DNA of 23,880 bases, taken from positions 1 through 23,880 of IMG/VR virus record IMGVR_UViG_3300021959_000385. The stretch is one strand, 5' to 3'. Below, piece by piece: positions 743 to 20,114 of this stretch. The number at the start of each line of letters is the position of its first letter. Within the stretch, counting starts at the first letter, position 1. The notes below the pieces were generated by a model. It was not told where the DNA came from and made no database searches. It worked only from the letters and a program-made list of their open reading frames with translations. The stretch is from a virus. Both the position numbers and the translations under genes were made by a program.

Positions 743-745
743 AAA

Positions 746-1081
746 ATGTCAGTAATAGATAACGCAGTAAAACATTTTGAGGCTCAAGATGTGAGAGTAA
801 CGCTGGTTCCAGAATGGGGCCAAGACGATGAACCTTTAAAAATATACAGCAAGCCATTAACGCTTAGTGAAACTTCTAAACTCTACAAAATGAGCCAGGA
901 AGATGATCTAACGATGATGGCTTATGTATTAATTTTTAAGGCATTGAGTAGCGAAGGGGAAAAGTTATTTGATATTGGCGATAAAAATAAACTTCTAAAT
1001 AAAGTTGATCGTGAGGTGTTAGTTAGAGTAGCCCAGGAGATTATGGGGCAAGAGCCTATTGAGGAAACAAAAAAGGACTAA
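746..1081 (+). CDS. Tail assembly chaperone (lambda gpG-like)
   Basis: A 111-residue, mostly helical, acidic protein placed between the tail tube and tape measure genes, the position of lambda G. Such proteins coat the tape measure during tail assembly and are absent from the virion. The first residues and the 'KIYSKPLTLSETSKLYK' region resemble the tail-chaperone fold that copies part of the tube protein surface. The zero-frame product ends E-E-T-K-K-D at TAA 1079-1081, right after a slippery A-AAA-AAG. Only three bases separate it from the tail tube stop, and there is no obvious strong ribosome site, so translation may be coupled. Confidence 0.8.
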   Translation: MSVIDNAVKHFEAQDVRVTLVPEWGQDDEPLKIYSKPLTLSETSKLYKMSQEDDLTMMAYVLIFKALSSEGEKLFDIGDKNKLLNKVDREVLVRVAQEIMGQEPIEETKKD

Positions 1082-1230
1082 CAGAGGATGCTAATTTATT
1101 TCTGCAATACAGCCTTGCAGAAAAGCTAGGTAAAACCTTAGAGGAATTGCAGCAAATTAGTGTTCAGGAATATCAAGGCTGGATTGCTTATTTAGAAATA
1201 TTAGAAGATAGAAGAAAGCATGGCAAATAA
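746..1230 (+). CDS. GT frameshift product of the tail chaperone gene
   Basis: A -1 slip on A-AAA-AAG (1069-1075) moves the ribosome from the gpG-like frame into an open frame that runs to TAA 1228-1230. The fused product is about 161 residues: 110 from the zero frame plus 51 from the -1 frame. The added T-like domain contains 'FLQYSLAEKLGKTLEEL' and 'EYQGWIAYLEI', the aromatic W-x-x-Y type ending often seen in T domains that bind the tape measure. No separate start would make the T part. It overlaps the tape measure start by 11 bases. The G/GT scheme is established for lambda-like tails; its use here is read from the sequence. Confidence 0.85.
1069..1075 (+). promoter_or_regulatory. Programmed -1 frameshift slippery heptamer A-AAA-AAG
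   Basis: Zero-frame reading is ACA-AAA-AAG-GAC-TAA, so the heptamer A AAA AAG is in the correct phase and the zero-frame stop follows one codon later. After a -1 slip both tRNAs re-pair on AAA AAA. I see no strong downstream stem-loop by eye. The heptamer alone can be efficient in bacteria. Confidence 0.85.
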
Positions 1231-2920: not shown

Positions 2921-3526
2921 ATGTCTGGACAATTTCCAACAAATCCAAATTTTAAAACAATAAATTTTAATAGCGATACACCAACGCTGGTAAATCAAAC
3001 ATTATCTGGCCGCAAACAAGTAAGACAAATTGGAGCACAATATTTTCATTTCACAGTTCAAATGCCGCCTATGCAACAAGAAAAGGCCCAGGAAGTATTT
3101 GCATTTTTACAAAAACAAAAAGGTTCTTTTGAAGATTTTACTATACAGGCACCATTAGATAATTTAGGTGCTGGTAGGTCAGAAACAGATATATTGGTTG
3201 CTGGTGCACATACAGCTGGCGATGCTTCTATTGCAATAGATGGCTTCTCAGCAAATCAAACTGGATCCTTAAAGGTTGGAGACATTATAAAATTTGCTAA
3301 TCATAGCAAAATTTATATGGTGCAATCTGACATTGATTCTGATAGCGGTGGTGCATTAACTGTTTTAATATCTCCAAATTTGGTGGCCGCACTTGCAGAT
3401 AATGAAGCTGTTACTGTTAACAAGCCTAGTTACACTGTTTATCTTGCCAACAATGAAATCATGTATGTTACAGATGCCAGTGGCTTTTACAGCATTTCAT
3501 TTGATGTGCGAGAGGCCATTACATAA
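2921..3526 (+). CDS. Probable distal tail / minor tail protein
   Basis: A 201-residue protein that starts directly after the tape measure stop behind a GGGGG-type site (2907-2911) and overlaps the next gene by one base. The N-terminus ('PNFKTINFNSDTPTLVNQT') and the 'QYFHFTVQMPPMQQEKA' segment look like the beta-rich first domain of distal tail or lambda gpM-like minor tail proteins, which form the ring below the tube. The middle part is a second small beta domain ('GDIIKFANHSKIYMV'). By order it corresponds to the slot between tape measure and hub in lambda and gene transfer agents. I cannot tie it to one named family with certainty. Confidence 0.6.
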   Translation: MSGQFPTNPNFKTINFNSDTPTLVNQTLSGRKQVRQIGAQYFHFTVQMPPMQQEKAQEVFAFLQKQKGSFEDFTIQAPLDNLGAGRSETDILVAGAHTAGDASIAIDGFSANQTGSLKVGDIIKFANHSKIYMVQSDIDSDSGGALTVLISPNLVAALADNEAVTVNKPSYTVYLANNEIMYVTDASGFYSISFDVREAIT

Positions 3527-4074
3527 TGCCAAGAAGTTTATCAACAGCTATACAAAACCAGGTATCAGCAACTGCAACCAAAACAGCTTTTTTGGTTGAG
3601 TTAAATTTATCAACAGTAATTAGGCTAACAGACTGGTACGCAAATGTTACTTATGATTCTAATTCTTATGAGGCTGGTGGATCTTTTTTGTCAGTAGATG
3701 GAACAACTGAAACAGGACAATTACAGGTTAACGAAATTAACATTGGTTTTTCAAATATTACAGATCAAGTTAGATCCCTGGTGCAAAGCGGAGCATTTAC
3801 AGATAAAACAGCAGAAGTTTATTTAGCTTACTTTGATGCAAACGAAAGCATTGTGGGTGCTATTAACTTTTTTACTGGCCAGATAAGAAATGTATCTATC
3901 AACGAAAATATAGATAACTCAATTTTATCTATGGTTGTTGCTAGCCATTGGGCAAATTGGAATTTGACCAAGGGTAGGCACTACTCTGATGAATCTCAAC
4001 AATCTTTTAGTTCTGGCGATAGAGGCATGGAATTTGCTGGCCAAGTAAAAGAAGATGTTAGGTGGGGTATGTAA
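3526..4074 (+). CDS. Tail hub-like protein (DUF2163/lambda gpL type)
   Basis: A 182-residue beta-rich protein. The start pattern 'RSLSTAIQNQVSATATKTAFLVEL', then 'VIRLTDWYANVTYDSNSYEAGGSFL', follows the plan of DUF2163-type tail proteins (lv.l...G...r.TD......G..Y.a....). The end has 'ASHWANWNLTKGRHYSDESQQ', 'SGDRGMEFAGQVKEDVRWG', recalling the A-x-x-x-W...R..d..Q motif in hub proteins that begin the tail tip. It overlaps both neighbours by one base (TAATG on both sides). It probably links the distal ring to the central tip protein. Unlike gpL there is no visible Cys cluster for an iron-sulphur site. Confidence 0.65.
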   Translation: MPRSLSTAIQNQVSATATKTAFLVELNLSTVIRLTDWYANVTYDSNSYEAGGSFLSVDGTTETGQLQVNEINIGFSNITDQVRSLVQSGAFTDKTAEVYLAYFDANESIVGAINFFTGQIRNVSINENIDNSILSMVVASHWANWNLTKGRHYSDESQQSFSSGDRGMEFAGQVKEDVRWGM

Positions 4075-7000
4075 TGCAATTTTTTGCTGCCGTTGGTGAA
4101 TTTTTCAAAGCTGCTTTTGCTCTCTTTGCCGAAGCCAAATTAATAACACAAATACAAGTTGCTCTAACAGCAGCAACTTTAGTTGTAGGTGTCAAAGGGT
4201 TTATGCAGGCCAGGGCAATGCTTGCCAAAGGCCAAGACATATTGGCAAACAAAACTTCTATGGGAGGAAAAGTTGGAATTATTTATGGAACAAGGAGGGT
4301 GGGTGCACAAATTATTTACATGGATGTGTCAGACAATGATTCTAGGGATATGTATGTTGTTTATGCTTTATCAGTTGGTGAATGTGATGAAATTATTGGC
4401 AGAACAATTGAACTAGACGGCAACCCTTTAACTGATTCTGCAAGATTTAGAAATGGCGGTTACATTGGTTCAGACAAAATATCTTCTGGCTCTGGATCGC
4501 TAAATACAGTTTCACAAAACGGAACAAATAGCCTAAATCTTACTGCTGGCACTTTTGGAACAGATCCAACAGCAAAATATAGATATGTTATGAATTTGCA
4601 TCATGGGGCTGCATCACAAACAGCAGATCCTATGTTAGTTGCATCAATGTCTAACTGGACTACAGCACATAGGCTAGATGGTATATGTTACATAGTGGCC
4701 CATTACGGCTATGACAAAGAAGGAATGTGGCGTGGAGTGCCGCAGCTAACAGTGCAAGTAAGAGGCAAAAAAGTTTTTGATCCCAGGGATAACACTCAAA
4801 CATTTGGCACTGTTTCTACTTACAAATATTCAGACAATCCAGCCTTATGCTTCCTGGATTACATTGTTAACGATGAGTTCGGAAAGGGCCTCACATCTAG
4901 CCAAATAAATATGTCAACTTTTACGGCAGCTGCAAATGTTTGTGATACAAAAGTAGATCAACCATATTTTAATGGATCTGCTGTAGATACAACTTTTACC
5001 GCAACATCTGGTAATGATTTTTTTGCCATTGATGGTACTTTTGCTAATACTAATTGGTTCCAAAATAAAATAGGCGAAGTTTTAAGCCTATATGATTCAG
5101 ACGGAAATGGAATTATTACTGAGGCTGAGATAAAAGAGGTGCACAGAGATCAATTTTTTGACGAAAGTGCACAATACTTGGTTTATATAAATGATTTATT
5201 TTCTTCTTCATTTGCAGCCGAAGAAGGAACATCTTTAGCAAAGGTTAAAAGATTCCATTGTAATGGCTATGTAGATGCCAATAAGAATGTTATGGATAAT
5301 GCCAAGGAACTCCTGGCAAACATGAGAGGCATATTTTTATACATAGATGGAAAATATGAATTATCTATAGAGGACACAGGTACATCAACATTTAGTATTA
5401 CTGATAATCACATTATTGCTGAATCTGGTATAGGCGTTGATTATGGTAACAAGGATAAAAAGGCCAATAAAGTTATAGTTGAATTTTTCAATGCTAATAA
5501 AAAATATGAATTAGATACCGCCACAGTTTTACATGATGCTTCGCCAAACTACACCTCAGATGATGGTGGTGAAGTGCTAGAAATTAAAGCTGAGTTTCCT
5601 TTAATATCAGATCCTTATATTGCTTACAACATGGCCAAAGCAATTTTAACCAGGAGCAGAAACCAGACAACAATGCAGTTTATGGGAACTCCAGAAATGT
5701 ATAAGTTAAATGTCGGAGACATTGTAGATTTAACTTATGCTGGCCTAGGTTTTAGTGGCAAAGTTTGCAGAGTTGAGGCCCTAGAATTGCAATCTAATGG
5801 ACTGGTTGCTGTTAGCTTAATTGAATATTTTGATGTATATACCTGGGAAGTTCCGCCACAAGAAGCGGTAGAGGAGTTGGCTAACCTGCCTTCAGCTTAT
5901 GCTGTAAAAGCCCCAACAGGTTTATCTTTTACAGATAGCAACTCTAGTTCCACAGGAAGGCCTTTTTTATCTTGGAACGAACCTACAGACTTTCCAGATT
6001 ATCAATATAGAGTAAATGTTGTAGATAGTTCAAACAATCAAGTTACAAATAAAATAGTTAATACTGAGAATTGTGATTTAAACTTTGTTAAAACAGGTTC
6101 TAATTATGTTGCCAGCGTTAGTTCTTTAAACACGCTAGGCGTTGAATCATCGCCAGCAACCTTAACTTTTACTATTGGGATCAAGCCAGTAGATGGTCAA
6201 GTTGATGTTATTTCTGAAACAGTAGATACGCTGCAAATTGCCGCTGATGCGGTAACAAATGCCAAGCTGGCCGTGGATTCTATCCAGGGTGATGTTATTG
6301 CCGCTGGTGCGATAACTGAACAAAAATTTGCAGATGATTCTATTACAGCTGATAAGTTAAAATCAAATTCTGTAACTACAGTTAAAATTTTGGCTAGAAA
6401 TATAATTGCTGAATCAATAGCAACAGATGCTGTAATTGCCAGGACAATACAAACAGATGCAGTAACCGCTGACAAAATATTGGCAGATGCTGTAACAGCA
6501 ACAAAAATTAATGTAAGCGATTTGGCGGCAATTTCAGCTGATATGGGAACCATTACTGCTGGCACCATTTCAGCTGGAACAGTTAAAGCTACAACGCTTG
6601 AACTAAATGGAACAACGCTAAGTGCAGATGCTAATGGGTTAAAAATAGCAGCCAGCGGTGTTTCTTCTGGAGAGTTGGGAACAAGATCTGTTGGATCCAT
6701 GGTTGTAAATGGGGCCTCTGGATCTAGCGGTTTTGGTGATGGTAGATCTGGAGATAGTTTTGGCAGCTTAATTGAAGCAACATTTACTACAGCTGAGGCT
6801 GGGGATTATCAGATTGTTGCTAATTGCATGGTAGGTGGAACCATTAATAATTTAACCCAGGTAGAATCAAGAACAAGGATTGGCTCAACTGTTATAGCTG
6901 ATTATAGTTCTCCAGTTGGTGGCAATATGCTACAACCTATAATACTTGCTGGAAAAGTAACATTGGCCGCTGGCACCAGCTATACAGCAATTTTAGAAGG

Positions 7001-7088
7001 CCAGGTTATACAAGATAATCCAGGGGTAACACCAGCCATTTCTGGTTTTAGCACTAGAATTTCAGCACTCAAATTAAATAAACAATAA
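4074..7088 (+). CDS. Central tail tip / host specificity protein (gpJ-like) with EF-hand
   Basis: About 1004 residues. The first ~60 residues are hydrophobic and helical, then 'GGKVGIIYGTRRVGAQIIYMD' and 'LSVGECDEIIGRTIELDGNPL' match the N-terminal domain of gpJ-like tip proteins. Residues 341-352 (DSDGNGIITEAE, 5094-5129) form a perfect EF-hand calcium loop. An FN3-like domain spans about 613-703. About 710-865 holds repeats of the form 'aDAVTadKI'. The C-terminus is a beta domain. The protein likely closes the tail tip and may contact the receptor. A GTG at 4062 is also possible, but ATG 4074 overlaps the upstream stop (TAATG) and has AGGTGGGG at good spacing. Confidence 0.85.
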   Translation: MQFFAAVGEFFKAAFALFAEAKLITQIQVALTAATLVVGVKGFMQARAMLAKGQDILANKTSMGGKVGIIYGTRRVGAQIIYMDVSDNDSRDMYVVYALSVGECDEIIGRTIELDGNPLTDSARFRNGGYIGSDKISSGSGSLNTVSQNGTNSLNLTAGTFGTDPTAKYRYVMNLHHGAASQTADPMLVASMSNWTTAHRLDGICYIVAHYGYDKEGMWRGVPQLTVQVRGKKVFDPRDNTQTFGTVSTYKYSDNPALCFLDYIVNDEFGKGLTSSQINMSTFTAAANVCDTKVDQPYFNGSAVDTTFTATSGNDFFAIDGTFANTNWFQNKIGEVLSLYDSDGNGIITEAEIKEVHRDQFFDESAQYLVYINDLFSSSFAAEEGTSLAKVKRFHCNGYVDANKNVMDNAKELLANMRGIFLYIDGKYELSIEDTGTSTFSITDNHIIAESGIGVDYGNKDKKANKVIVEFFNANKKYELDTATVLHDASPNYTSDDGGEVLEIKAEFPLISDPYIAYNMAKAILTRSRNQTTMQFMGTPEMYKLNVGDIVDLTYAGLGFSGKVCRVEALELQSNGLVAVSLIEYFDVYTWEVPPQEAVEELANLPSAYAVKAPTGLSFTDSNSSSTGRPFLSWNEPTDFPDYQYRVNVVDSSNNQVTNKIVNTENCDLNFVKTGSNYVASVSSLNTLGVESSPATLTFTIGIKPVDGQVDVISETVDTLQIAADAVTNAKLAVDSIQGDVIAAGAITEQKFADDSITADKLKSNSVTTVKILARNIIAESIATDAVIARTIQTDAVTADKILADAVTATKINVSDLAAISADMGTITAGTISAGTVKATTLELNGTTLSADANGLKIAASGVSSGELGTRSVGSMVVNGASGSSGFGDGRSGDSFGSLIEATFTTAEAGDYQIVANCMVGGTINNLTQVESRTRIGSTVIADYSSPVGGNMLQPIILAGKVTLAAGTSYTAILEGQVIQDNPGVTPAISGFSTRISALKLNKQ
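5094..5129 (+). other. EF-hand calcium-binding loop inside the tip protein
   Basis: The encoded 12 residues D-S-D-G-N-G-I-I-T-E-A-E have acidic or amide ligands at positions 1, 3, 5 and 12, Gly at 6 and Ile at 8, the full EF-hand consensus. A helix-like 'NKIGEVLSLY' precedes and 'IKEVHRDQFFD' follows, as expected for the flanking helices. Only one loop is seen. Confidence 0.85.
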
Positions 7089-7324
7089 TGAGCACTATAT
7101 ACGCACCAACACCAGAAAATCCTTTAACAACGACACAAAAAATAAGGAATCAAAGACTGTTTATGCTACAGGACTGCGATTGGACAGTTGGTGTTGATAG
7201 CCCATTTAACGATGCAAAAAAAGCAGAGTGGGTAACATACAGGCAAGCATTAAGAGATTTGCCATCTCAATACACCGATGATGCTAATTTTGAAGATGTA
7301 GTTTTTCCGACACCGCCAGAATAA
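7088..7324 (+). CDS. Small phage tail assembly chaperone-like protein
   Basis: A 78-residue protein that starts on the last base of the tip-protein stop (TAATG). It has the pattern R-x-x-x-x-L-x-D-C-D-W-T ... W-x-x-Y-R-Q-A-L-R-D-L-P, matching the small Phage_tail_APC-type family (a tail or fibre assembly helper found next to tip and fibre genes in many phages). The C-terminus ends in 'VVFPTPPE', also usual for the group. The role as chaperone is family knowledge; the partner, probably the tip or the first fibre, is inferred from position. Confidence 0.75.
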   Translation: MSTIYAPTPENPLTTTQKIRNQRLFMLQDCDWTVGVDSPFNDAKKAEWVTYRQALRDLPSQYTDDANFEDVVFPTPPE

Positions 7325-7360
7325 AAATATATATGCGTAAACCAATTAATAAAAGTAAAA

Positions 7361-7379
7361 TTTATAAACAACAAAAGGG
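7361..7379 (+). promoter_or_regulatory. TATAAAYA element before fibre 1
   Basis: TTTATAAACAACAAAAGGG occupies the 61-base gap before the large fibre gene. An identical 19-base copy is at 15006-15024, on the other side of the fibre block. The 3' AAAGGG may also serve as the ribosome site for ATG 7386. The core TATAAACA resembles the T4 late promoter core TATAAATA. Confidence 0.5.
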
Positions 7380-7385
7380 TAATTA

Positions 7386-10300
7386 ATGTCTCAGAATACG
7401 AACTACAATTTAGCAAACCAGAGTGGGGCAAACTTTAGGGCGGAACTAAATAATACTCTCCTAGATATTGTTTCAAATAACTCTGGTGCTTCAGAGCCAG
7501 CAACCAAGTTTGCCTATGAATTGTGGGTAGATACTAGCAATTCAGTTATGAAGATTCGCAACAGCGGAAACGATGCCTGGATAACTTTGCCATTTAGCAT
7601 TACAGCTGATAACACAGTTGATATAAATGGCGGAACAATTAATGGCATTACCAGCTTATCTTTTAGCAGTGGATCTACAGTAACAACTGTTTTGGACGAA
7701 GATGATCTTTCAAGCGATTCTGCTACAGCCCTGGCCACACAGCAATCATTAAAAACATACATTGATGCACAGGTTACGGCCCAAGATTTAGATTTCCAGG
7801 GAGATAGCGGTGGGGTGCTTTCAATTGATTTGGATAGTGAAACCTTTACTTTAAATGGCGGCACTGGAATAGATACAGTTGGCTCAGAAAACACAGTTTC
7901 TTTTGCTATTGATTCTACAGTTGCAACCCTTACTGGAACACAAACACTTACAAACAAAACAATAGATTTAGATAGCAATACTTTATCTAATATTGAAGTT
8001 GATAATTTAAAATCTGGTGTCCTGGACACAGATTTAACTTCAGTCTCTACATCCGATGATACTCTGGCCTCAGCAAAAGCAATTAAGACTTATGTTGATG
8101 CGGCCATAACAGCTGAAGATCTTGATGTAAGTGATGGATCTAATTCTGGATCTATAGACCTTGATTCAGAAACTTTAGGCTTACTCGGTGGCACTGGTGT
8201 TACTTCAGCTTTATCTGGCAACAACATTACATTTTCTATTGGCCAATCAGTTGGCACTTCAGACAATGTAACTTTTGGAGTTGTTACAGCTGCTTTAACT
8301 GGCAACGTCACTGGCCAGGTTAGTGATATATCAAACCATTCAACCTCTGATCTTAGCGAAGGATCTAATTTATATTTTACAGATGCCAGGAGCTATACAG
8401 CTTTTGATACCAGGCTTGCAACCAAAGACACAGATGATTTATCAGAAGGGAATTCTCTTTACTATACAGAGGCCAGATGGGATGCCAGGTTGGCCCAAAA
8501 AACCACAGATAACATTACAGAAGGATCTTCTAATTTATTTTTTAACAATGAAAGAACAGATGACAGGGTTTCAGCATTAATACAAAACGGCACTGGCCTT
8601 ACCTGGACTTATGATGATGCCTCTGGAACCTTAACTGGCGTTGTATCGTTATCGCCTTTTAATACATCGCAGCTTTCAGAATCTGGCAATCTGTATTACA
8701 CAGATGCTAGAGCAAGGGCCGCAATATCAGAAAACTCTGCACAGCTTGCTTATGATTCTTCAACTGGTGTTTTAACTTACAACCAGGGAAATTCAGACAC
8801 AGTAGCAGAAGGCTCTACTAATTTATTTTTTACAGATACCAGAGTAGCAACTAAGATTGATTCTTATGTAAATAAAGCGTTTGTAGATGCACTCAATGTT
8901 GTAGCTGCATCAACCTCTGGAAATTCTGCTACAGCCACAGCACTAGCTACGGCCAGAGCTTTTTCTATTACAGGAGATGCTACAGCTTCAGCTCAAAACT
9001 TTGATGGTTCAGGTAATGTAGTTTTAACTTTAACAATTGATGATGATGCAATTGCCCTGGGAACAAAAACCACAGGTAATTATATTGCCACGATTGCAGG
9101 CACTGCCAATGAAATAGAAGTTTCTGGATCAGGATCTGAAACAGCAGCAGTAACTATTGGCCTGCCAGATGATGTATCAATAGCAAATGATTTAACAGTT
9201 GCTGGAGATTTAACAGTTAATGGAGATTTAACTTATTTAGATACAACCAATTTAAAAATAGAAGATAATTTATTTGAATTAAATGCAAACTTAACTGGCA
9301 GCCCAGTTAATGATTCTGGAATGTTAATACAAAGAGGATCTTCAGATAATGCTGTATTTATTTGGGATGAATCAGCAGATAAATTTACTCTGGGGCTAAC
9401 AACAGCAGATGGATCTGCAACAGGCAATATAACCCTGGCTTCATTAGGAACATTGGTTGCTAATGTAGAAGGAGCAATTACAGGTAATGTTACTGGCCAG
9501 GTTTCTACTTTATCTAATCACACCACCGCAGACCTAAGCGAAAATACAAATTTATATTTTACTAATGCCAGGGCACGTTCTGCAATTTCAGCAACAGGAG
9601 ATATTTCTTATAACAGTTCAACTGGTGTTATATCTTTTACAGCTTCAGCTGCACCAGTAACTTCTGTTAATTCAGAAACTGGGGCCGTGGTTTTAGATAG
9701 CGATGATGTAGCAGAAGGCACAAGCAATCTTTATTACACAGATGCCAGGGCCAGGGCGGCCATATCTGAAGGATCAACACAATTAAGTTATAACTCTGGA
9801 ACAGGTGTTCTAACATTTACGCAGGGCAACACGGACACAGTTGCAGAAGGATCAAGCAACTTGTATTACACAGATACCAGGGTTGCTACAAAAGTTGATT
9901 CTTATGTTGATAAGGCATTTGTAGATAACTTATCAGTAGTGGCCGCAAGTGCGACAGGCAATGCAGGAACTGCTACAACATTACAAACAGCAAGAACTAT
10001 TGCTGGCGTTTCATTTGATGGATCTGCAAATATTTCTCTTAACACATCAAACGTCACTGAAGATAGTGGCTACCTTTACTACACAGATGCCAGGGGCAAC
10101 AGTGCAATTGATACCAGGGTAAACAAAGCCTTTGTTGATGCTTTGAATGTAGTGGCCGCCTCAACAACAGGCAACGCTGGTTCTGCAACAGTTTTGGCAA
10201 CGGCCAGGACAATAGCAGGGGTGAGCTTTGATGGATCCGCAAATATTGCATTAGATACAGCGGACATTACAGAAGATGCCTCTGCTTTGTATTTTACTGA

Positions 10301-12065
10301 TTCCAGGGCCAGATCTGCCATTAGTGCTTCTGGATCTCTTTCCTATAACTCATCAACTGGCGTACTTTCATTTACCCAAAGGACTGATGCAGAAGTGCAG
10401 GCCTTAATAACAGCTGGCACTGGCGTTGGGGTTTCTAGTGGCGTGATTTCTATTGGCCAGGCCGTAGCAACTTCTGATTCTCCAACATTTGCCAACATGA
10501 CTTTAAGTGGCACTGGCTCTATAAAAGTTCCAAGTGGCACTACAGCACAAAGAGATGGATCACCTGCAAATGGAATGTTCAGATACAACTCTGAAGATGC
10601 TCAGTTTGAGGGTTATGCCGATGATGCTTGGGGTGCTATTGCAGGTTCAGGTGGTGGTGCTTCAGCAATGGAGACCAACAACTTTACAGGCGATGGTTCT
10701 ACCACTGCATTTACATTAAGCTCAAGTGTTTCAGATGAAGATAATTTATTAGCTTTTATAGAAGGTGTTTACCAAAACAAAGCTGATTTTGTTGCTTCAG
10801 GAACTACCATAACTTTTGATACAGCTCCTGCTAGCAGCAGAAACATAGTTGTACATCATGTTAAATCATCTATCAGTGGCAGCAATGTCATACTAAATTC
10901 ATTTACAGGCGATGGCTCAGATACAACCTTTACATTATCAACAGCACCACAATCTGAAAACAATACTCAGGTTTACTTAAATGGTGTTTACCAAAACAAA
11001 ACAACTTACTCAGTTTCAGGAACAACTTTAACTTTTGATGCAGCTCCTGCTAATACAGTGGCTATCGAAGTAATGATGTTTACACAGACAACTGTTAATG
11101 AGCCAGCAGCAAATACAGTAGGCGTTACACAGCTTGATTTAAGCGATGGCACAAGTGGTCAGGTCTTAACAACCGATGGCTCTGGCACTTTATCATTCTC
11201 AACAGTTGCTGGTACTACGATTAACAACAATGCTGATAACAGAATCATAACTGGTAGTGGTACTGCTAATACTTTAGAAGGTGAAGCTGGTTTTGTATTT
11301 GATGCTGGTGAGGCAAAAATTACAAATACCAATACAGGATCAGAGTCTATTTTTAGACTTTTCCAAGATTCTAATACCCCAGCCCAACAAGCAAGATTAA
11401 CATTTACAAGAGACTGCGATGCTGGTACTGAGAGAGATGTTGCACATATTGCTGCAATTAGAGAGGGTGGCAATGACACTGCTTTAGGATTTTATACAGA
11501 TACTACAGGCTCGGGTTCTTCAGCAGTAGAGCAAATGCGAATTAATGCTGGTGGAAATGTGTTAATTGGCACTACCTCAGACACTTTATCTGGCACAGAT
11601 GCAGGTTTTGTTTTTAAGGGCGATGGCAACGCTTCCTTTGTTACAAGCACTGGTGTTTTGTATATGCGAAGAACGGGATCAGATAGTGTTCACATAAAAT
11701 TCAGATCAACAACAAATGCTTCAGTTGGTCAAATATCTTCCGATGGTTCAAACACCACTTATTCAACATCTTCTGATTATAGATTAAAAGAAAATGTTAT
11801 TTACGATTGGGATGCAACCACAAGATTAAAACAGCTAAAACCTGCAAGATTTAATTTTTTACAAGGTAACACTGAAACGCAAGATGGCTTCTTGGCACAC
11901 GAAGTTCAAACCATTGTTCCCACAGCAGTAGAGGGTATTAAAGATGCTGTAGATGAAAATGGAGATGTAGACCCACAAAGCATAGATCATAGCCAGCTTG
12001 TTCCATTGCTTGTAAAAACAATACAAGAACTAGAAACACGAATTACACAATTAGAAAACGCTTAA
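7386..12065 (+). CDS. Long tail fibre with S74 intramolecular chaperone (chimeric)
   Basis: A 1559-residue fibre. Residues 1-100 are a likely docking head. About 330-1000 holds ten 'LYFTDAR'-type repeats and three copies of a 'VNKAFVDAL' block. About 1100-1240 has two tandem 'F-T-G-D-G-S ... Y-Q-N-K' modules. The C-terminal ~100 residues are a Peptidase_S74 domain: Ser1463 and Lys1468 have the S-x4-K spacing of the autocleaving endosialidase-type chaperone, followed by 'DGFLAHEVQ'. The domain drives trimer folding and is then cut off. Base usage changes near 10.46-10.56 kb (residue ~1025-1060): CCWGG and RGATCY are dense before and absent after, so the distal part appears exchanged. Confidence 0.9.
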   Translation: MSQNTNYNLANQSGANFRAELNNTLLDIVSNNSGASEPATKFAYELWVDTSNSVMKIRNSGNDAWITLPFSITADNTVDINGGTINGITSLSFSSGSTVTTVLDEDDLSSDSATALATQQSLKTYIDAQVTAQDLDFQGDSGGVLSIDLDSETFTLNGGTGIDTVGSENTVSFAIDSTVATLTGTQTLTNKTIDLDSNTLSNIEVDNLKSGVLDTDLTSVSTSDDTLASAKAIKTYVDAAITAEDLDVSDGSNSGSIDLDSETLGLLGGTGVTSALSGNNITFSIGQSVGTSDNVTFGVVTAALTGNVTGQVSDISNHSTSDLSEGSNLYFTDARSYTAFDTRLATKDTDDLSEGNSLYYTEARWDARLAQKTTDNITEGSSNLFFNNERTDDRVSALIQNGTGLTWTYDDASGTLTGVVSLSPFNTSQLSESGNLYYTDARARAAISENSAQLAYDSSTGVLTYNQGNSDTVAEGSTNLFFTDTRVATKIDSYVNKAFVDALNVVAASTSGNSATATALATARAFSITGDATASAQNFDGSGNVVLTLTIDDDAIALGTKTTGNYIATIAGTANEIEVSGSGSETAAVTIGLPDDVSIANDLTVAGDLTVNGDLTYLDTTNLKIEDNLFELNANLTGSPVNDSGMLIQRGSSDNAVFIWDESADKFTLGLTTADGSATGNITLASLGTLVANVEGAITGNVTGQVSTLSNHTTADLSENTNLYFTNARARSAISATGDISYNSSTGVISFTASAAPVTSVNSETGAVVLDSDDVAEGTSNLYYTDARARAAISEGSTQLSYNSGTGVLTFTQGNTDTVAEGSSNLYYTDTRVATKVDSYVDKAFVDNLSVVAASATGNAGTATTLQTARTIAGVSFDGSANISLNTSNVTEDSGYLYYTDARGNSAIDTRVNKAFVDALNVVAASTTGNAGSATVLATARTIAGVSFDGSANIALDTADITEDASALYFTDSRARSAISASGSLSYNSSTGVLSFTQRTDAEVQALITAGTGVGVSSGVISIGQAVATSDSPTFANMTLSGTGSIKVPSGTTAQRDGSPANGMFRYNSEDAQFEGYADDAWGAIAGSGGGASAMETNNFTGDGSTTAFTLSSSVSDEDNLLAFIEGVYQNKADFVASGTTITFDTAPASSRNIVVHHVKSSISGSNVILNSFTGDGSDTTFTLSTAPQSENNTQVYLNGVYQNKTTYSVSGTTLTFDAAPANTVAIEVMMFTQTTVNEPAANTVGVTQLDLSDGTSGQVLTTDGSGTLSFSTVAGTTINNNADNRIITGSGTANTLEGEAGFVFDAGEAKITNTNTGSESIFRLFQDSNTPAQQARLTFTRDCDAGTERDVAHIAAIREGGNDTALGFYTDTTGSGSSAVEQMRINAGGNVLIGTTSDTLSGTDAGFVFKGDGNASFVTSTGVLYMRRTGSDSVHIKFRSTTNASVGQISSDGSNTTYSTSSDYRLKENVIYDWDATTRLKQLKPARFNFLQGNTETQDGFLAHEVQTIVPTAVEGIKDAVDENGDVDPQSIDHSQLVPLLVKTIQELETRITQLENA
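8353..10330 (+). repeat. Fibre shaft repeats of the LYFTDAR type
   Basis: Ten degenerate copies of a unit of the form 'E-G-S-N-L-Y-F-T-D-A-R-A-R-x-A-I' begin near 8365, 8453, 8530, 8689, 8818, 9550, 9730, 9858, 10072 and 10288. Three longer copies of 'VNKAFVDAL-NVVAAST' lie near 8865, 9905 and 10118. They are coding repeats of the trimeric shaft and possible substrates for recombination. Confidence 0.8.
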
Positions 12066-12080
12066 AGAGGAAAATAAAAA

Positions 12081-12122
12081 ATGGCAAATACAAAAGTAAC
12101 ACAGGAACTTATAGATGGCTAA
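12081..12122 (+). pseudogene. 13-codon remnant of a fibre N-terminus (leader ORF)
   Basis: ATG 12081 to TAA 12120-12122 encodes M-A-N-T-K-V-T-Q-E-L-I-D-G, the opening of the fibre family that begins at 12115 (MANTKITSHVIAD) and 13558 (MANTKIPSELIADG). An AGAGG site stands before it, and it overlaps the start of the next fibre by 8 bases. It looks like the 5' end of an older fibre gene cut off by a module exchange at the shared GATGGC word. It may now act as a leader that feeds ribosomes to the fibre behind it. Confidence 0.7.
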
Positions 12123-13557
12123 TACTAAGATCACATCACACGTCATAGCAGACAATGCTATCACCACTGCAGCGATTGCGGATGATGCAGTTACAGGTGC
12201 AAAGATAGAAAACGCTGTAACCATTACAACTTCTGTTACAACTCCATTAGTAGATGCAGCTATTTTAGATGGTGAAAACTTCAAGGTAAATGGCGGACAG
12301 GGTTCTGACGGACAACTTCTAACCTCTACAGGTAGCGGAGTTGCTTGGGAAGATGCACCTGCAGGTGGTCCTACATTTAAAACCTTTGGCACATCTTCCA
12401 TAATGATTGGTGATGATGCTACAGGCACGATTGATGCAGCTAATTATAATACTGGCGTTGGGGTAGATGTTTTTGCAGCACTTACTACTGGTGTTAGTAA
12501 TGTCGCAGTAGGATTCTCTGCAGCCAAAGCTTTAACAACAGGTGTTCGCAATGTATTTATTGGAAAAGAAGCAGGAAGCATAGGTACAACAACAAGTTAT
12601 TCAGTTGGTATTGGTAGAGAATCACTTAAAAATGCAACTGGCAATAATAATACAGCAGTTGGTTATGTAGCCCTAAAAGGATTAACTTCGGGCGAGAGTA
12701 ATACCGCAGTAGGTAGAAGTGCAATGACTGGTGTTGTTACAGGAGATAATAACACAGCAGTGGGTTATGGATCAGGTGCTGCTATTACTTCAGGTATAAC
12801 TAATGTAGCGGTTGGACACAATGCATTAAAGGCAAATACAACAGGCTCAGCCAACACTTCTTTAGGTCAAGACTCTTTACAGGCAGAAGTAACTGGTGAG
12901 GGGAATGTAGCAGTAGGCACAAGTTCTTTGTATACATCCAATGGCGGTTCTTGGAATACATCCGCAGGTTGGAATGCAGGACTAAGTAACACGACGGGCA
13001 GTTATAACTGTTTTTTTGGTATGAAAGCTGGTAGAGATGTTACAACAGGTTCAAACAATGTTCTTATTGGTGGTTCAGCAGGTCGGACAAATCAACCCAC
13101 AACAGCAATTACAACCCAATCAAATAGAATTATTATGGGTAATGCTGATCATACCAATGCTCACATTGCAATATCTTGGACAGTGACTTCTGATAAACGA
13201 GATAAAACAGATGTAACTCCACTAGACATGGGATTGAGTTTTATTAACAAACTAGAACCTGTCATTTATAAGTGGGATAAACGAGCAAAATATGAAGAAG
13301 GAAATACTCCTGACGGCACACACAAAGAAAGTTGGACAGATGTAGGTTTCTTAGCTCAAGATGTTGAAGAAATAGAAGCAGAGTTTGGTCATAAAATAGA
13401 AGATGAAACTAACTTAACAACATACGCGAGTGAGGATAAAGATCATTATGGTCTTACTTACGAAAAATTTGTACCTATGCTAGTCAAAGCCTTACAAGAA
13501 GCAGATGCTAAAATAGATGCTTTAACAGCACGAATAGAAACACTGGAGAACGCATAG
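12115..13557 (+). CDS. Second tail fibre: YadA-head-like beta-roll plus S74 chaperone
   Basis: 480 residues. The N-terminus has repeats 'VIADNAITTAAIADDAVTGAK', also seen in the tip protein and in the next gene. About residues 110-330 consist of 12-16 residue repeats such as 'NTAVGYGSGAAITSG' and 'NVAVGHNALKANTTG', the left-handed beta-roll of YadA-head/Hep_Hag trimeric adhesins. The last ~125 residues are a Peptidase_S74 domain with Ser359 and Lys364 (S-x4-K) and 'VGFLAQDVEEIEAEFG'. No capsid or baseplate anchor is visible, so it probably attaches through its N-terminal repeats. A leader remnant (12081-12122) overlaps the start. It lacks the CCWGG words that fill the backbone. Confidence 0.88.
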   Translation: MANTKITSHVIADNAITTAAIADDAVTGAKIENAVTITTSVTTPLVDAAILDGENFKVNGGQGSDGQLLTSTGSGVAWEDAPAGGPTFKTFGTSSIMIGDDATGTIDAANYNTGVGVDVFAALTTGVSNVAVGFSAAKALTTGVRNVFIGKEAGSIGTTTSYSVGIGRESLKNATGNNNTAVGYVALKGLTSGESNTAVGRSAMTGVVTGDNNTAVGYGSGAAITSGITNVAVGHNALKANTTGSANTSLGQDSLQAEVTGEGNVAVGTSSLYTSNGGSWNTSAGWNAGLSNTTGSYNCFFGMKAGRDVTTGSNNVLIGGSAGRTNQPTTAITTQSNRIIMGNADHTNAHIAISWTVTSDKRDKTDVTPLDMGLSFINKLEPVIYKWDKRAKYEEGNTPDGTHKESWTDVGFLAQDVEEIEAEFGHKIEDETNLTTYASEDKDHYGLTYEKFVPMLVKALQEADAKIDALTARIETLENA

Positions 13558-14640
13558 ATGGCAAACACAAAAATACCAAGTGAGCTGATAGCAGATGGCA
13601 GCATAGTTACGGCCAAGATTGCAGATGATGCGGTAAGCGCAGACAAGTTAGCTTCTAGTGCAGTTGTTACGGCTTCTATAGTTGATGATGCTATAACCTC
13701 TGCCAAGATTGTAGACAATCCTACATTTAGTGGCACTGAGTCTATAACCATCCCGTCAGGAACTACAGCACAAAGAGCAAGTAGCCCTGCAAATGGTATG
13801 GTTCGTTACAATACAACAGAATCAACAGTGGAAGGCTATATTAGTGGTCAGTGGAGAGAATTACAAACAGCAGGTTATGCATACACCTTAGAATATGTAG
13901 TAGTTGCAGGTGGTGGTGCGGGTGGAACAGGTGCATATTCTGATGCAGCAGGTGGTGCAGGTGGGGGTGGTTATCGTTCATCTGTATCTGGTGAAAGTTC
14001 AGGGCGCGGTGCAAGTGCTGAAGCAGCAATGACAGTAAACCCAACTACAGTTTATACAATTACAGTAGGTGCGGGTGGCTCAAATGCCGTTGGTGGTAAC
14101 TCATTAATTTCAGGCTCAGGCTTAACCACGATTACATCTAATGGTGGTGGAGAGGGTGGAGATAGACAAGGATCAAATAACAAAGATGGTGGTTGCGGTG
14201 GCGGTGGTGGTTACCTTTATCCAGCAGCAGGTTCAGGAACAACAGGGCAAGGATATGATGGCGGTCTTTTTGCTTCATCTTATTATCCTGCAGCTGGCGG
14301 TGGTGGTGCAGGTGGCACAGCAACTGGAAGTGTCAATGAAGTTGGTGGAGCAGGTGTAGCAACAAGCGTTACTGGTTCTGCAGTTACCTATGCTTTAGGC
14401 GGTCATGGTGGTAATAGCACTAACGGAGCAAGCCCAGTGGCAGGCGGTGCAAACACTGGAACAGGTGGTGGCGGTTATTATGGCAGTGGTGGTAATGGTG
14501 CAAATGGTGGTTCAGGAATTGTCATTTTAAAAGTACCTACTGCCTCATATTCAGGAACAACAACTGGCTCACCTACAGTCACTACAGTTGGTGATTATAA
14601 AATAATTAAATTTACAAGCTCAGGAACATACACAGGATAA
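13558..14640 (+). CDS. Glycine-rich tail adhesin
   Basis: 360 residues, beginning one base after the previous stop. The N-terminal ~60 residues are 'IADGSIVTAKIADDAVSADKL' repeats. A linker 'SGTTAQRASSPANGMVRYN' is nearly the same as one in fibre 1 near 10540-10590. From about residue 115 ('YVVVAGGGAGGTG') to 325 ('GGSGIVILKV') is a glycine-rich domain in which Gly runs separate short variable loops. Glycine-rich adhesins of this type can pack polyglycine helices and present receptor-binding loops, as known for distal adhesins of some T-even phages. The likely role is receptor binding at the fibre tip. The GGT/GGC-rich DNA is a plausible place for slippage or loop exchange. Confidence 0.8.
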   Translation: MANTKIPSELIADGSIVTAKIADDAVSADKLASSAVVTASIVDDAITSAKIVDNPTFSGTESITIPSGTTAQRASSPANGMVRYNTTESTVEGYISGQWRELQTAGYAYTLEYVVVAGGGAGGTGAYSDAAGGAGGGGYRSSVSGESSGRGASAEAAMTVNPTTVYTITVGAGGSNAVGGNSLISGSGLTTITSNGGGEGGDRQGSNNKDGGCGGGGGYLYPAAGSGTTGQGYDGGLFASSYYPAAGGGGAGGTATGSVNEVGGAGVATSVTGSAVTYALGGHGGNSTNGASPVAGGANTGTGGGGYYGSGGNGANGGSGIVILKVPTASYSGTTTGSPTVTTVGDYKIIKFTSSGTYTG

Positions 14641-14642
14641 AA

Positions 14643-14999
14643 ATGGCACATTTTGCAAAGGTTAAAAATAGAATAGTTACAAATGTAATAGTTGCAGATC
14701 AAGATTTTGTAGATAGTTACATAGACCATGAAGCAGGTAAATGGATTAAAACAAGCTATAACACAATGGGTGGTGTACATACAGAAGGTAAAACTCCATT
14801 AAGAAAAAACTTTGCTTCTATAGGCGGTGTTTATGATGCAGAAAGAGATGCTTTTTATGAACAACAGCCATATCCATCATGGACATTAGATGATAATAGC
14901 TGTTTATGGCAGCCACCAGTTGCATATCCTAATGATGGCAGTAATTACAAATGGAACGAAGATGGCCAAGAATGGGAACTAATTGATAATTCTGTATAA
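14643..14999 (+). CDS. Conserved small protein after the adhesin, function unknown
   Basis: 118 residues, two bases after the adhesin stop. The C-terminal half has a recognisable pattern, 'YPSWTLDDNSCLWQPPVAYP' then 'DG-x-x-Y-K-W-N-E' and 'W-E-L-I', which I associate with small proteins next to fibre genes in marine T4-like and other phages. It is rich in Trp and Tyr and lacks signal peptide or membrane segments. The position suggests a fibre-associated subunit or assembly helper; no activity can be assigned. It belongs to the CCWGG-free block, so it probably moved together with the fibre genes. Confidence 0.65.
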   Translation: MAHFAKVKNRIVTNVIVADQDFVDSYIDHEAGKWIKTSYNTMGGVHTEGKTPLRKNFASIGGVYDAERDAFYEQQPYPSWTLDDNSCLWQPPVAYPNDGSNYKWNEDGQEWELIDNSV

Positions 15000-15005
15000 T
15001 AAAAT

Positions 15006-15024
15006 TTTATAAACAACAAAAGGG
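15006..15024 (+). promoter_or_regulatory. TATAAAYA element before the lysis operon
   Basis: TTTATAAACAACAAAAGGG, identical over 19 bases to 7361-7379. It is the only spacer between the fibre block and the lysis operon. AGGGAG at its end is the likely ribosome site for ATG 15038. Confidence 0.5.
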
Positions 15025-15036
15025 AGTATTAATACT
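15025..15036. promoter_or_regulatory. Perfect 12-base palindrome at the lysis operon ribosome site
   Basis: AGTATTAATACT is its own reverse complement and lies exactly between AGGG and ATG 15038. It could be an operator or could fold to mask the start. It may also be chance in AT-rich DNA. Confidence 0.3.
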
Positions 15037-15037
15037 T

Positions 15038-15310
15038 ATGAGCGATAAAAATAAAAAAACAGAAGAAGAAGTGATAGCGGATCCAGTGGTCATTAACATT
15101 GAAGATGGAGAGGGCAATGTTAGATCCTGGAAACAATCAGAGTGCACAGAACATCAATTGCAGCTGATTAGAGAACTAGAACCTATTTCTAAAGCTTTGG
15201 TAAATTTAGAAACTGAATTTGCCAGGGTAAACAGAGACAAGCAATATCGCTTAGATGATTTTATTGCAGCTGGCAAAGAAGCTGAAGCTGAACAACCAGA
15301 GGAAAAATAA
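15038..15310 (+). CDS. Unknown small acidic protein opening the lysis operon
   Basis: 90 residues, highly charged at both ends (K/E-rich start, 'EAEAEQPEEK' end) with a helical middle ('QLQLIRELEPISKALVNLETEFARV') likely to form a coiled coil. No membrane segment or catalytic motif is visible. It opens the operon of small lysis genes, one base before the next start, behind the 15006 promoter-like element. Similar small acidic proteins occur before lysis genes in marine phages, but I cannot name a function. Confidence 0.6.
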   Translation: MSDKNKKTEEEVIADPVVINIEDGEGNVRSWKQSECTEHQLQLIRELEPISKALVNLETEFARVNRDKQYRLDDFIAAGKEAEAEQPEEK

Positions 15311-16586: not shown

Positions 16587-16984
16587 GATCCCTGGGAGAA
16601 TCAATAGTCAAATCATGTTTGCTTGAATACTCAGACTTTTGCTATGAAACTTGCGAATCACACCCAGCAGATCTTATCGTTGAATTTGGTAATGCCCTAT
16701 ATAAGGTGCAAGTTAAATCCAGGAACAAATCAAAAGAAGGCAAGTACACATTTCCCATTGAAAGCCACAGGTCTAAATCTGTTACGCACCAGCATTATCA
16801 TTGCGACATTTACGCTTTTGTATTTTTCCCAGATAAGAGAATCCTCTTTGTACCAAACACAAGCGGCCAGAAGTATTTTGTGTACCAGGAAACAGTCATG
16901 GTGGACAACATGGAATATGACACACTCCAGGACACTTTAGGATCACTTTCACAGGTACCAGTTTTAGATAATCTTTTAGATTAA
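16544..16984 (+). CDS. Small PD-(D/E)XK nuclease-like protein
   Basis: 146 residues, overlapping the lysozyme by 43 bases with its own AGGAG site (16531-16535). 'RLGSLGES' (Glu19), 'HPADLIVEF' (Asp43) and 'YKVQVKS' (Gln56-x-Lys58) form the G-x-x-G-E ... D ... Q-x-K core of small PD-(D/E)XK endonucleases, near the group of intron endonuclease-like/Holliday-junction-resolvase-like proteins. A role in recombination, host DNA breakdown or mobile endonuclease activity is possible. It is the last gene before the methyltransferase cassette; a partner in restriction cannot be shown. Confidence 0.65.
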   Translation: MSKSNQENHNAKRLGSLGESIVKSCLLEYSDFCYETCESHPADLIVEFGNALYKVQVKSRNKSKEGKYTFPIESHRSKSVTHQHYHCDIYAFVFFPDKRILFVPNTSGQKYFVYQETVMVDNMEYDTLQDTLGSLSQVPVLDNLLD

Positions 16985-16985
16985 A

Positions 16986-17034
16986 ATTTATAAATAACAA
17001 ACTATCTTTGCATATATATATATTTATACATATC
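16986..17034 (+). promoter_or_regulatory. TATAAATA element and AT block before the methyltransferase
   Basis: Begins with ATTTATAAATAACAAACTAT, identical over 20 bases to 18583-18602, and continues into alternating AT (CATATATATATATTTATACA), also similar to the other copy. It lies in the 85-base gap before the methyltransferase. This is a likely promoter. The two copies flank the gene as direct repeats. Confidence 0.5.
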
Positions 17035-17069
17035 ATAGGGGGTATGTTATTTATAAATTGAGGTAAAAC

Positions 17070-18581
17070 ATGAATGTATTAAGTTTGTTTGACGGAATGA
17101 GTTGTGGAATGATCGCTTTAGATCGTTTAGGTATCAAAGTAGATAATTATTACGCCAGTGAGATTGATAAGTATGCAATCCAAGTAAGCCAAGCCAATTA
17201 CCCAGATATTGTTCAATTAGGAGATGTTACTAATTGGCAAGAGTGGGATATAGATTGGGCCACCATAGATTTGGTTACAGGTGGTTTTCCATGTCAGTCT
17301 TGGTCATTAGCAGGTAAACAGTTAGGTGATAAAGACGAAAGGGGAATGTTGTTTTGGGTGATGTTAGACATCATACAAAAAGTTATGGAAAACAATCCTA
17401 ACGCTTATTACCTCATGGAAAATGTAAAGATGAAAAAAGAGTTTGAGGAATATATAACCATGCACACTCAAAACGCTTTACCAAATGTTTATAAATATTT
17501 TATTAACAGCTCTTTGGTTTCTGCTCAGTCAAGACAGCGTTACTATTGGACTAACATTCCCAATGTTGAGCAACCTAAAGAGAGGGGAATTGTTTTAAGA
17601 GACATTTTGGAGGCTAACACTTCTAATGAATATCTTGCAGGAGAAAACCTACAAAAGAATTATAAAGGTGGCAATCAACTAAACCCAAACTATAAAAGCC
17701 AAGCGAATACTATCCATGATGTTGATGGCAAGTCTGGAACAATTTGTGCAGGTACTCATGGTTATGCCAATGGTTATGTTGGTGGTGTTGATCCTAAGTA
17801 TCATTTATCAGACAAGGCTATTGCTTACATGAATAGAGGTAGTGAAAAATACACAGGCAAAAAAACAAGAGCAGAACATTACATAAAACATGAAAGCGAA
17901 AAGTCCAAAACACTTACTGCCAATATGCACAAAGGAGTTCCCTATGGGGTTATTGCTATTGATAAACCCAAACACAAAGAGCAAGACCATTTAAAGCAAT
18001 TCAAAATAAAAGACGAAACAGTACCTAAGTATGTACCTAATGAAGAAGGAGACTTTTGCGATCCTTATAATAAAAAAATGATTAAAGGAGATAAATCTAC
18101 AACACTTAGGACAAATTCATCTAATGGTAATACTTGGATAAAACAAACTAGCGATAAACCTCAACATATAGGAACAGCAGTTGATGTTAATGGACACGAT
18201 ATTTTAAAGCGTGTGTATTCGCCTGATGGTAAGTCTCCTACTTTAAATACTTGTGGCGGTGGTAATACTCATGCAAAGGTTGTATGTGGTGCTTGGCGAG
18301 GTAGATACAACCAAGATGGATCAACAAGTCAAAAGTTAGAATTACGCAAAGATAATAAAACCAACACTATTACTACAGTACAAAAGGATAATGTTTTAAC
18401 CAAAGATGAAGTCTATTGGCGAAAGCTCACACCTTTAGAATGTATGCGTCTCCAAACAGTCCAGGACGATTATTTGATGCCTGTTTCAAACACGCAGAAA
18501 TATAAACTTTTAGGCAATGGTTGGACGATAGAAGTCATAGCTCACATCTTACAAAATATGGATCTCTTTTTTGATGCCTAA
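17070..18581 (+). CDS. C5 cytosine DNA methyltransferase, possibly multi-target
   Basis: 503 residues, ATG behind GAGGT. Motif I is 'LFDGMSCG' (residues 6-13), motif IV 'GGFPCQSWS' with nucleophile Cys75, motif VI E117-N-V, motif VIII 'QSRQR' (Arg155, Arg157), motif IX 'PLECMRLQTV', and motif X 'LLGNG' around Asn483. All catalytic parts are intact. The recognition region (about 165-440) is long and holds five spaced copies of K-S/T-x-T-L/I (near residues 221, 278, 341, 387, 430). It probably protects phage DNA from host enzymes. It has its own promoter-like repeat on both sides and only one CCWGG, unlike the backbone, so it looks like an acquired moron. No restriction partner is adjacent. Confidence 0.92.
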   Translation: MNVLSLFDGMSCGMIALDRLGIKVDNYYASEIDKYAIQVSQANYPDIVQLGDVTNWQEWDIDWATIDLVTGGFPCQSWSLAGKQLGDKDERGMLFWVMLDIIQKVMENNPNAYYLMENVKMKKEFEEYITMHTQNALPNVYKYFINSSLVSAQSRQRYYWTNIPNVEQPKERGIVLRDILEANTSNEYLAGENLQKNYKGGNQLNPNYKSQANTIHDVDGKSGTICAGTHGYANGYVGGVDPKYHLSDKAIAYMNRGSEKYTGKKTRAEHYIKHESEKSKTLTANMHKGVPYGVIAIDKPKHKEQDHLKQFKIKDETVPKYVPNEEGDFCDPYNKKMIKGDKSTTLRTNSSNGNTWIKQTSDKPQHIGTAVDVNGHDILKRVYSPDGKSPTLNTCGGGNTHAKVVCGAWRGRYNQDGSTSQKLELRKDNKTNTITTVQKDNVLTKDEVYWRKLTPLECMRLQTVQDDYLMPVSNTQKYKLLGNGWTIEVIAHILQNMDLFFDA

Positions 18582-19409: not shown

Positions 19410-20114
19410 TTGAGTGATATTTTAAGAGAGACATCCAATCTCATAAAACTTAGGAATAGAGTGGTTGTTTACTTGCCAAACAAAAAAGTAAAAACCAGGC
19501 AGTTGGCCGCAGACTTACTGAACCTGGAAAAGCATAAGCTGGCAAATTGCCTAGATATGTTTATAGATAAACCAACAAAAAAACCAAAAGATAAACCAGA
19601 GCTAAGAAGGGCGGTTGCTTTGTGTAACAGCAAGGCTAACACTGATTTAATAATTCCAGATCTTGGAACGCTGGCCCAGAGCATATATTTTATTGCTGAG
19701 GTTTCAGCTTTAAAGAGCTTAAAATTTTATGTGGCCACCAGGCCCGCAAGATCCAATGATATTTTATTGCTGCCAATGGACATATTAACGATGGCCAGCA
19801 TTGCAGAAAACATTAGAAAAGATGTCAGAATAAAAACCAAAGCCAGGCTCCAGGAGTTAAAAGATCAAGGAGTGCAATTAGGTGCACCAGATCCAATGGC
19901 TTCACTGGCAATAGCTCATGCAGCCAACAGGGAGATTGCAGACGATTATGCAAAACAGGTTATGCCAATTATTCGTGAGATCCAGGGCCTGGGCCACAGA
20001 ACTTTGACAGACATCGCCAAAATGTTAAATGCCAGGGGGGTTGAAACTGCAAAGGGTGGCAAGTTTTACCCAACGACTGTAAAGAATATTTTAAATAGAT
20101 CTAAATTTTTATAG
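19410..20114 (+). CDS. Degenerate serine-recombinase-family protein (likely inactive)
   Basis: 234 residues, start TTG 19410 after AGGGGG. The C-terminal half 'IIREIQGLGHRTLTDIAKML' then 'NARGVETAKGG' and 'TVKNILNRS' is the helix-turn-helix DNA-binding domain of resolvase-family recombinases, and 'KTKARLQELKDQGVQLG' matches the linker helix of that family. The N-terminal domain keeps the fold pattern, but the nucleophile motif Y-x-R-x-S is replaced by 'VYLPNKK' and the L-D-R-L-S-R motif by 'LGTLAQS', so catalytic Ser and Arg are gone. It should bind DNA without cutting it. A regulatory or DNA-architecture role is likely; it is followed by a winged-helix regulator nine bases later. Confidence 0.75.
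   Translation: MSDILRETSNLIKLRNRVVVYLPNKKVKTRQLAADLLNLEKHKLANCLDMFIDKPTKKPKDKPELRRAVALCNSKANTDLIIPDLGTLAQSIYFIAEVSALKSLKFYVATRPARSNDILLLPMDILTMASIAENIRKDVRIKTKARLQELKDQGVQLGAPDPMASLAIAHAANREIADDYAKQVMPIIREIQGLGHRTLTDIAKMLNARGVETAKGGKFYPTTVKNILNRSKFL

Follow-up and report, generated by a model that had tools for sequence, protein, structure and literature searches.

In a 23,880-nucleotide (nt) stretch of viral DNA (hereafter the window; IMG/VR record IMGVR_UViG_3300021959_000385, positions 1 to 23,880), an island at 10460-15075 lacks almost all of the short palindromic words that are abundant in the rest of the window, the backbone. The island starts inside the gene for a 1559-amino-acid (aa) tail fibre, and we regard it as an imported fibre module with a probability of roughly 0.85; the import is well supported at the left end and by its recurrence in related phages. 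Judging from the family matches of its proteins (S74, tail spike and Gly-rich), the island is a predicted receptor-binding (host-range) module. An earlier note on this DNA had proposed that such a module was replaced by one from a phage without the word habit, and the results agree with this proposal in three respects: the switch at 10520 to word-free kin, the resumption of homology at the right border and the recurrence.

The words followed here are CCWGG, RGATCY and GGCC, together with a fourth word, CMGCKG, which was found via CAGCTG and whose variants CAGCGG and CCGCTG behave alike. The word-poor island is genuine. CCWGG occurs 95 times in the 23,880 bases and not once between 10457 and 15126; RGATCY (63 across the window) is absent between 10332 and 15079; and only two of the 92 GGCC lie inside the island, at 13611 and 14964. 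The earlier note had placed the CCWGG borders at about 10454 and 15125, a few bases off, and the RGATCY borders at about 10335 and 15078; its estimate of about two GGCC was exact, and the left border does fall inside the fibre gene, which spans it. Its description of a palindrome-free island needs amendment in that the island is not the sole word-poor stretch, because 16928-18460, at a C5 cytosine methyltransferase gene, is another, and in that CMGCKG had been overlooked. CCSGG does not occur anywhere in the window. The word spacing is random (coefficient of variation about 1), and we therefore rejected the idea that the words are regularly spaced interval marks.

The deficit was evaluated against two null models: a codon shuffle within each gene, which preserves amino acids and codon usage, and a back-translation, in which the island proteins are re-coded with backbone codons to give a neutral expectation. 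Against the codon shuffle, the window backbone is enriched 3.6-fold in CCWGG, 2.2-fold in RGATCY, 2.2-fold in GGCC and 2.0-fold in CMGCKG, and the palindromic words stand 2.05-3.7-fold above the codon-corrected expectation (z 11-47). Codon usage was thus rejected as the cause of the enrichment, the codon-shuffled controls being 2-3.7-fold lower. The island holds three occurrences of the four words, vs 22.1 by back-translation (Poisson 5e-7) and about 51 if it were enriched like the backbone. Because 12.9 would be expected even on its own codon usage by codon shuffle (P about 0.001), the island mildly avoids the words, besides missing the enrichment. For CCWGG, the backbone rate of about 4.9/kb predicts about 23 per 4.6 kb, near the 25 or so given in the earlier note, but the fair figure for these proteins is about 8 at the 3.6-fold backbone enrichment, and 2.3 at the neutral level. 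Amino-acid content, which that note had named as a possible refutation if it explained the drop fully, therefore accounts for part of the CCWGG drop and does not cover the rest, since for the four words together three are seen vs 22; as a cause of the island it was rejected on this ground.

Relatives were taken as the IMG/VR records sharing the window's J-like tail protein, and they are sharply bimodal: with all words counted together, a record is rich in them or has almost none. The rich group, to which the window belongs, has 4-6 CCWGG, about 4 RGATCY and about 5 GGCC per kb, and about 14-17/kb of the four words; the word-free group has zero or nearly zero of each word over up to 21 kb. Alignment with these sister phages, a check that the earlier note had proposed, shows that the nearest relative of the window changes sharply at 10520 and at 14985-15000. 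On the upstream side of 10520, identity to the word-rich L044 is mostly 84-95%, and most word-free phages are at or below 80% or unalignable, apart from L041 (93% over 10460-10520) and L147 (88% over 10410-10460). Over 10520-10800, the nucleotide identity of the window to most word-free phages carrying the segment is 91-97% (94-97% for L056, L147 and L143; 80-92% in places for L057, L138 and L146, and also lower in places for L041), vs just 82-85% to L044. The word-free identity averages 86-90% to about 11.3 kb, falling to about 80-88% there; in the tail genes on either side, these word-free phages and the window agree at about 65-81%. Around a dozen words stand in the L044 sequence that corresponds to 10461-11290, and none in the window or in eight word-free sequences; 7 of the 20 private substitutions of L044 in this segment fall in words. 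The change of affinity lies at a conserved fibre motif, SGTTAQR..SPANGMxRYN, which returns at 13723-13811; 10500-10588 and this second copy are 74% identical. At the right border, homology to most word-rich relatives restarts at 14985-15000, just ahead of the gene beginning at 15038, and in L113 it restarts at 14800, a relative of the 118-aa gene being kept as well. No homologue of the gene at 15038 was found in the word-free relatives examined. Since a second contig, L003, matches the window at 100% over the two borders, an assembly error is unlikely.

The module, defined as the stretch from the distal fibre to the gene at 15038, is word-poor in most rich relatives covering it. Nine rich phages have 0-9.7 words/kb at this place vs 14-20/kb elsewhere (pooled, 3.6 vs 17.2/kb), and most of their modules cannot be aligned with one another; in L038, the available part has no word gap. 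Such a range of densities is consistent with imports that differ in age and are refilling with words. The rich phage L028, which was left out of the stepwise border identities and was aligned separately, is 90% identical to the word-free L146 and 84% to the window in the same segment, which suggests a separate import event.

These observations have to be weighed against a history without any import, in which the fibre module evolves too fast to gather words or its amino acids cannot hold them. Fibre tips are generally fast-evolving, and the island proteins do offer fewer opportunities for CCWGG (the aforementioned 2.3). Such a history is nevertheless quite improbable, and the switch of identity at 10520 largely refutes it: the island falls far below the neutral as well as the enriched expectation, the repeats in the proximal part of the fibre gene are very word-rich (Table 1, the expectation there being from back-translation with backbone codons), the window reaches 95-97% nucleotide identity to word-free phages over 10520-10800, and L044 has gathered its dozen words in the homologous segment. 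A point that weighs against the import is that, for 11.3-15.0 kb, the searched collections contain short patches of similarity but no donor, and the 480-aa protein has at best a relative with 56% identity over most of its length. The earlier note had held that close relatives carrying the same island on a different backbone would speak against it; the word-free phages are such relatives for the first part, but the swap predicts exactly this.

In the import that we propose, the resident receptor-binding module would have been replaced by the distal fibre, second fibre, glycine-rich adhesin and small closing protein, with one recombination point in the conserved stem of the fibre (about 10460-10520) and the other shortly before the gene at 15038 (about 14985-15000). 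The donor of the first 0.8 kb would be closely related to the word-free marine siphophages surrounding the window's clade, and the 11.3-15.0 kb part presumably has the same kind of origin; the swap may have changed the receptor. In the backbone clade, the four words would have gone from near-complete avoidance to enrichment under directional selection, so that a fresh import should appear as a word desert and refill with age. The fibre module would thus have been repeatedly swapped in from word-free phages, the words being regained afterwards.

Because a 6-mer Markov scan of the whole window was too noisy, the two groups were compared after pooling (142 kb rich, 166 kb free). Observed over expected counts are 599/93 (6.4-fold) in the rich and 2/127 (0.02-fold) in the free group for RGATCY, 641/182 (3.5-fold) and 8/142 (0.06-fold) for CCWGG, 752/325 (2.3-fold) and 4/206 (0.02-fold) for GGCC, and 261/61 (4.3-fold) and 3/70 (0.04-fold) for CMGCKG. 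Both groups avoid CCGG, GCGC, GGWCC and RCATGY, and the rich group alone avoids ACGT, CTYRAG, ATGCAT, GAGCT and TCAGG; such group-specific forbidden words may mirror the restriction repertoire of the hosts. In a tree of the tail protein, disregarding the row of L116 (a wrongly joined fragment on a very long branch), the rich clade is nested in word-free phages with SH-aLRT 99 for 14 rich rows plus the word-free fragment L063, and therefore avoidance looks ancestral and enrichment derived. L063, a 6.1-kb wordless contig grouping with the rich clade with weak support (82), is a possible reversal or recombinant. L177 is rich in three words, has less CMGCKG and does not avoid ACGT, and this intermediate pattern suggests a stepwise assembly of the word habit. 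In G1, the record of L116 and a near-complete rich genome, the replication half (20650-33000) has about 22 words/kb, and the head and tail genes (600-13400) have about 15.

The window's phages are probably of the CRP-822-type family, with SAR86 as the probable host. The portal of the window's relatives, which with capsid, terminase and helicase is among the core genes that mark this family, is 47-48% identical in amino acids to those of Roseobacter phages CRP-406 and CRP-811; the window itself has no portal gene. For subgroup V of the CRP-822-type, PMC12629253 gives a low G+C (35.4 +/- 2.25%) and SAR86 as predicted host; genome size is similar and G+C low in the present phages too, and the word habit is not mentioned in the keyword passages of that source. 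CRP-406 and CRP-811 avoid CCWGG and RGATCY but, unlike the word-free relatives, not GGCC or CMGCKG. The word-free relative L178 lies on a contig of the SAR86 single-cell genome AG-390-L11, right after 50 kb of host genes, and this contig ties a word-free phage to that SAR86 cell. No integrase was seen at the junction (about position 50.2-50.5 kb), and the arrangement may reflect a prophage or else a chimera that arose in amplification.

Evidence concerning selection on the words comes from 284 derived synonymous third-position changes, polarised among eight rich phages in about 3.2 kb of aligned tail genes. The rich phages show 22 word-creating changes vs 5.1 expected (P 3e-8), comprising transitions (T>C 9 vs 2.2, A>G 6 vs 1.6) as well as transversions (T>A 4 vs 0.6, A>C 3 vs 0.3), and an avoided word was created once vs 15.3 expected; in word-free phages, 2 word-creating changes were found vs 11.5 expected. 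Among the one-step C-to-T neighbours of the words, GGTC alone is specially depleted. The excess including transversions, together with these otherwise undepleted neighbours, argues for selection, or for a fixation bias blind to the mutation type, and speaks against repair of the Vsr type. In a comparison that is rough because the target words are degenerate, 56-65% of CCWGG, RGATCY and GGCC and 44% of CMGCKG are retained among rich phages, vs 41-42% of control words.

As to what drives the enrichment, we tentatively favour, at well below even odds, a putative methylation of the four words by the hosts of the rich clade, whose dense marks would let the phage pass as self. Possible too, and a shade less probable, is the fuller account in which positive selection gathers the four words, putative host methylation protecting or disguising the DNA, and imports are converted, their word density dating each of them. 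Several results count against such an origin. The near-complete rich genomes G001 and G002 contain no recognised C5 or N6/N4 methyltransferase, and any methylation would therefore be host-derived; CAGCTG, the sole word checked, is raised in 0 of 151 SAR86-order genomes (0.2-0.35/kb vs 1.5/kb in rich phages), where SAR86 may not be the rich clade's host; and the polarised test is based on just 284 changes. C5 methyltransferases are present in 51 of the 199 SAR86-order genomes. The main rival is a ratchet of methyl-directed mismatch repair fixing site-creating mutations, as Elhai proposed for the cyanobacterial highly iterated palindromes (HIPs). It would suit words that are restriction-type palindromes and an excess in both transitions and transversions, and it has the cyanobacterial precedent (PMC4390886). 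We consider it unlikely, since that model saturates near 1 site/kb (PMC4390886), far from the 14-17/kb of the phages, and a host ratchet should also enrich the host genome, which the CAGCTG survey does not show for the SAR86 order, with the same reservation about the host.

Less probable again is an enrichment of the words as safe alternatives to near-miss words forbidden in the rich clade's host: TCAGG, GGTC and GAGCT are indeed depleted in the rich and not in the free group, but most neighbours of RGATCY, the word with the strongest enrichment, are not depleted, and those of CCWGG, pooled, and most of those of GGCC are close to normal. Alternatively, the clade might tolerate and gather words by virtue of the C5 methyltransferase encoded in the window, as multispecific phage C5 methyltransferases of the Bacillus SPR type are known. 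In the predicted 5-methylcytosine methyltransferase, motifs VIII and IX, as identified by eye, are separated by about 295 residues, a long variable region that would be compatible with more than one target, and the rich phages L175 and L176 carry such an enzyme at the same locus. This is slightly more doubtful still, because G001, G002 and most rich records lack the enzyme, its centre differs between phages, and the gene is itself word-poor and therefore apparently recent; as a general cause it was rejected, the enrichment not following its presence. The window's enzyme and those of L175 and L176 have common ends (44% N-terminal, 63% C-terminal) and different centres, which suggests an exchange of the target domain. 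In the word-rich L190, the record of L113, an N6/N4 methyltransferase (PF01555, 4e-34) takes the place of the C5 enzyme. The least probable is a Vsr-like very-short-patch T:G repair making words from C-to-T neighbours. It would account for the excess of the tetramers CCAG and CTGG in the backbone and for the depletion of GGTC/GACC in the rich group; it does not account for the state of the neighbours (CTWGG 0.88, RGATTY 1.06) or for the aforementioned T>A and A>C changes among the word-creating ones, which are not T-to-C only. No match to the Vsr family was found in nine rich records, nor in the near-complete G001 and G002, and this repair was rejected on all three grounds.

The features concerned are listed in Table 1. 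A PDB sequence search with the adhesin and the second fibre gave no meaningful match, and megablast against phage records gave no match. At 19410-20114, the window encodes a 234-aa protein that belongs to the word-rich clade and is similar to serine recombinases (PF07508, phrog_95); inspection by eye did not reveal their usual catalytic serine motif, and the protein may be a DNA-binding relic.

Table 1. Genes and border zone of the word-poor island and its neighbourhood in the window
Feature	Position	Strand	Evidence
Proximal part of 1559-aa tail fibre gene (gene 7386-12065), word-rich backbone	7386-10460	+	62 words vs 15 expected; 86% nt identity to word-rich L044 over 7322-11304
Left border zone	10460-10520	+	Words end at 10460; affinity shifts from rich to word-free relatives at about 10520
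Distal fibre, C-terminal S74 chaperone domain	10520-12065	+	PF13884 at aa 1463-1515
Second fibre/tail-spike-like protein, 480 aa, C-terminal S74 chaperone	12115-13557	+	phrog_4636 tail spike 8e-68; PF13884 2.5e-12
Glycine-rich adhesin-like protein, 360 aa	13558-14640	+	PF21722 Gly_rich_2 1.2e-8; phrog_2295 6.5e-29
118-aa protein closing the module	14643-14999	+	phrog_7759
First conserved backbone gene past the module, 90 aa	15038-15310	+	82-93% aa identity in word-rich relatives
C5 cytosine methyltransferase, 503 aa, second word-poor gene	17070-18581	+	PF00145 7e-42

The module swap itself is ordinary phage biology. As in other exchanges of tail-fibre or receptor-binding modules, the swap lies in the fibre stem, the distal genes are variable, and S74 chaperones and a Gly-rich adhesin take part; unlike the usual fibre exchange, the donor class is marked here by the restriction-word content, which roughly dates each import and provides a simple mark by which imported fibre modules can be recognised, and their age estimated approximately, in uncultured phages. 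The surprising part is that a sister clade passed from near-complete avoidance of the four words to their apparently selected enrichment. A literature search with limited journal coverage found the HIP precedent in cyanobacteria and no description of such a reversal in phages. Avoiding the sites is the response to restriction that textbooks give for phages (PMC6286503), and the word-free group is an extreme case, with 0.02-0.06 observed over expected for four type II-like words, whereas the derived rich clade, the window's backbone included, has the opposite sign for the same words. With these opposite signs and the excess of word-creating substitutions, the purpose of iterated palindromes becomes testable in a small, fast-evolving genome. 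If the methylation reading is true, restriction sites would have been turned from a liability into an asset. The footprint of very short patch repair is similar in its excess of CCAG and CTGG, but here C-to-T neighbours are undepleted and transversions are involved. Cyanobacterial HIP1 and its substitutes (PMC4390886) are likewise over-represented methyltransferase-type palindromes whose identity changes between lineages; unlike these HIPs, which occur at about 1/kb, the present words are four unrelated ones, reach 14-17/kb in phages of lytic type, and are avoided by the relatives of these phages.

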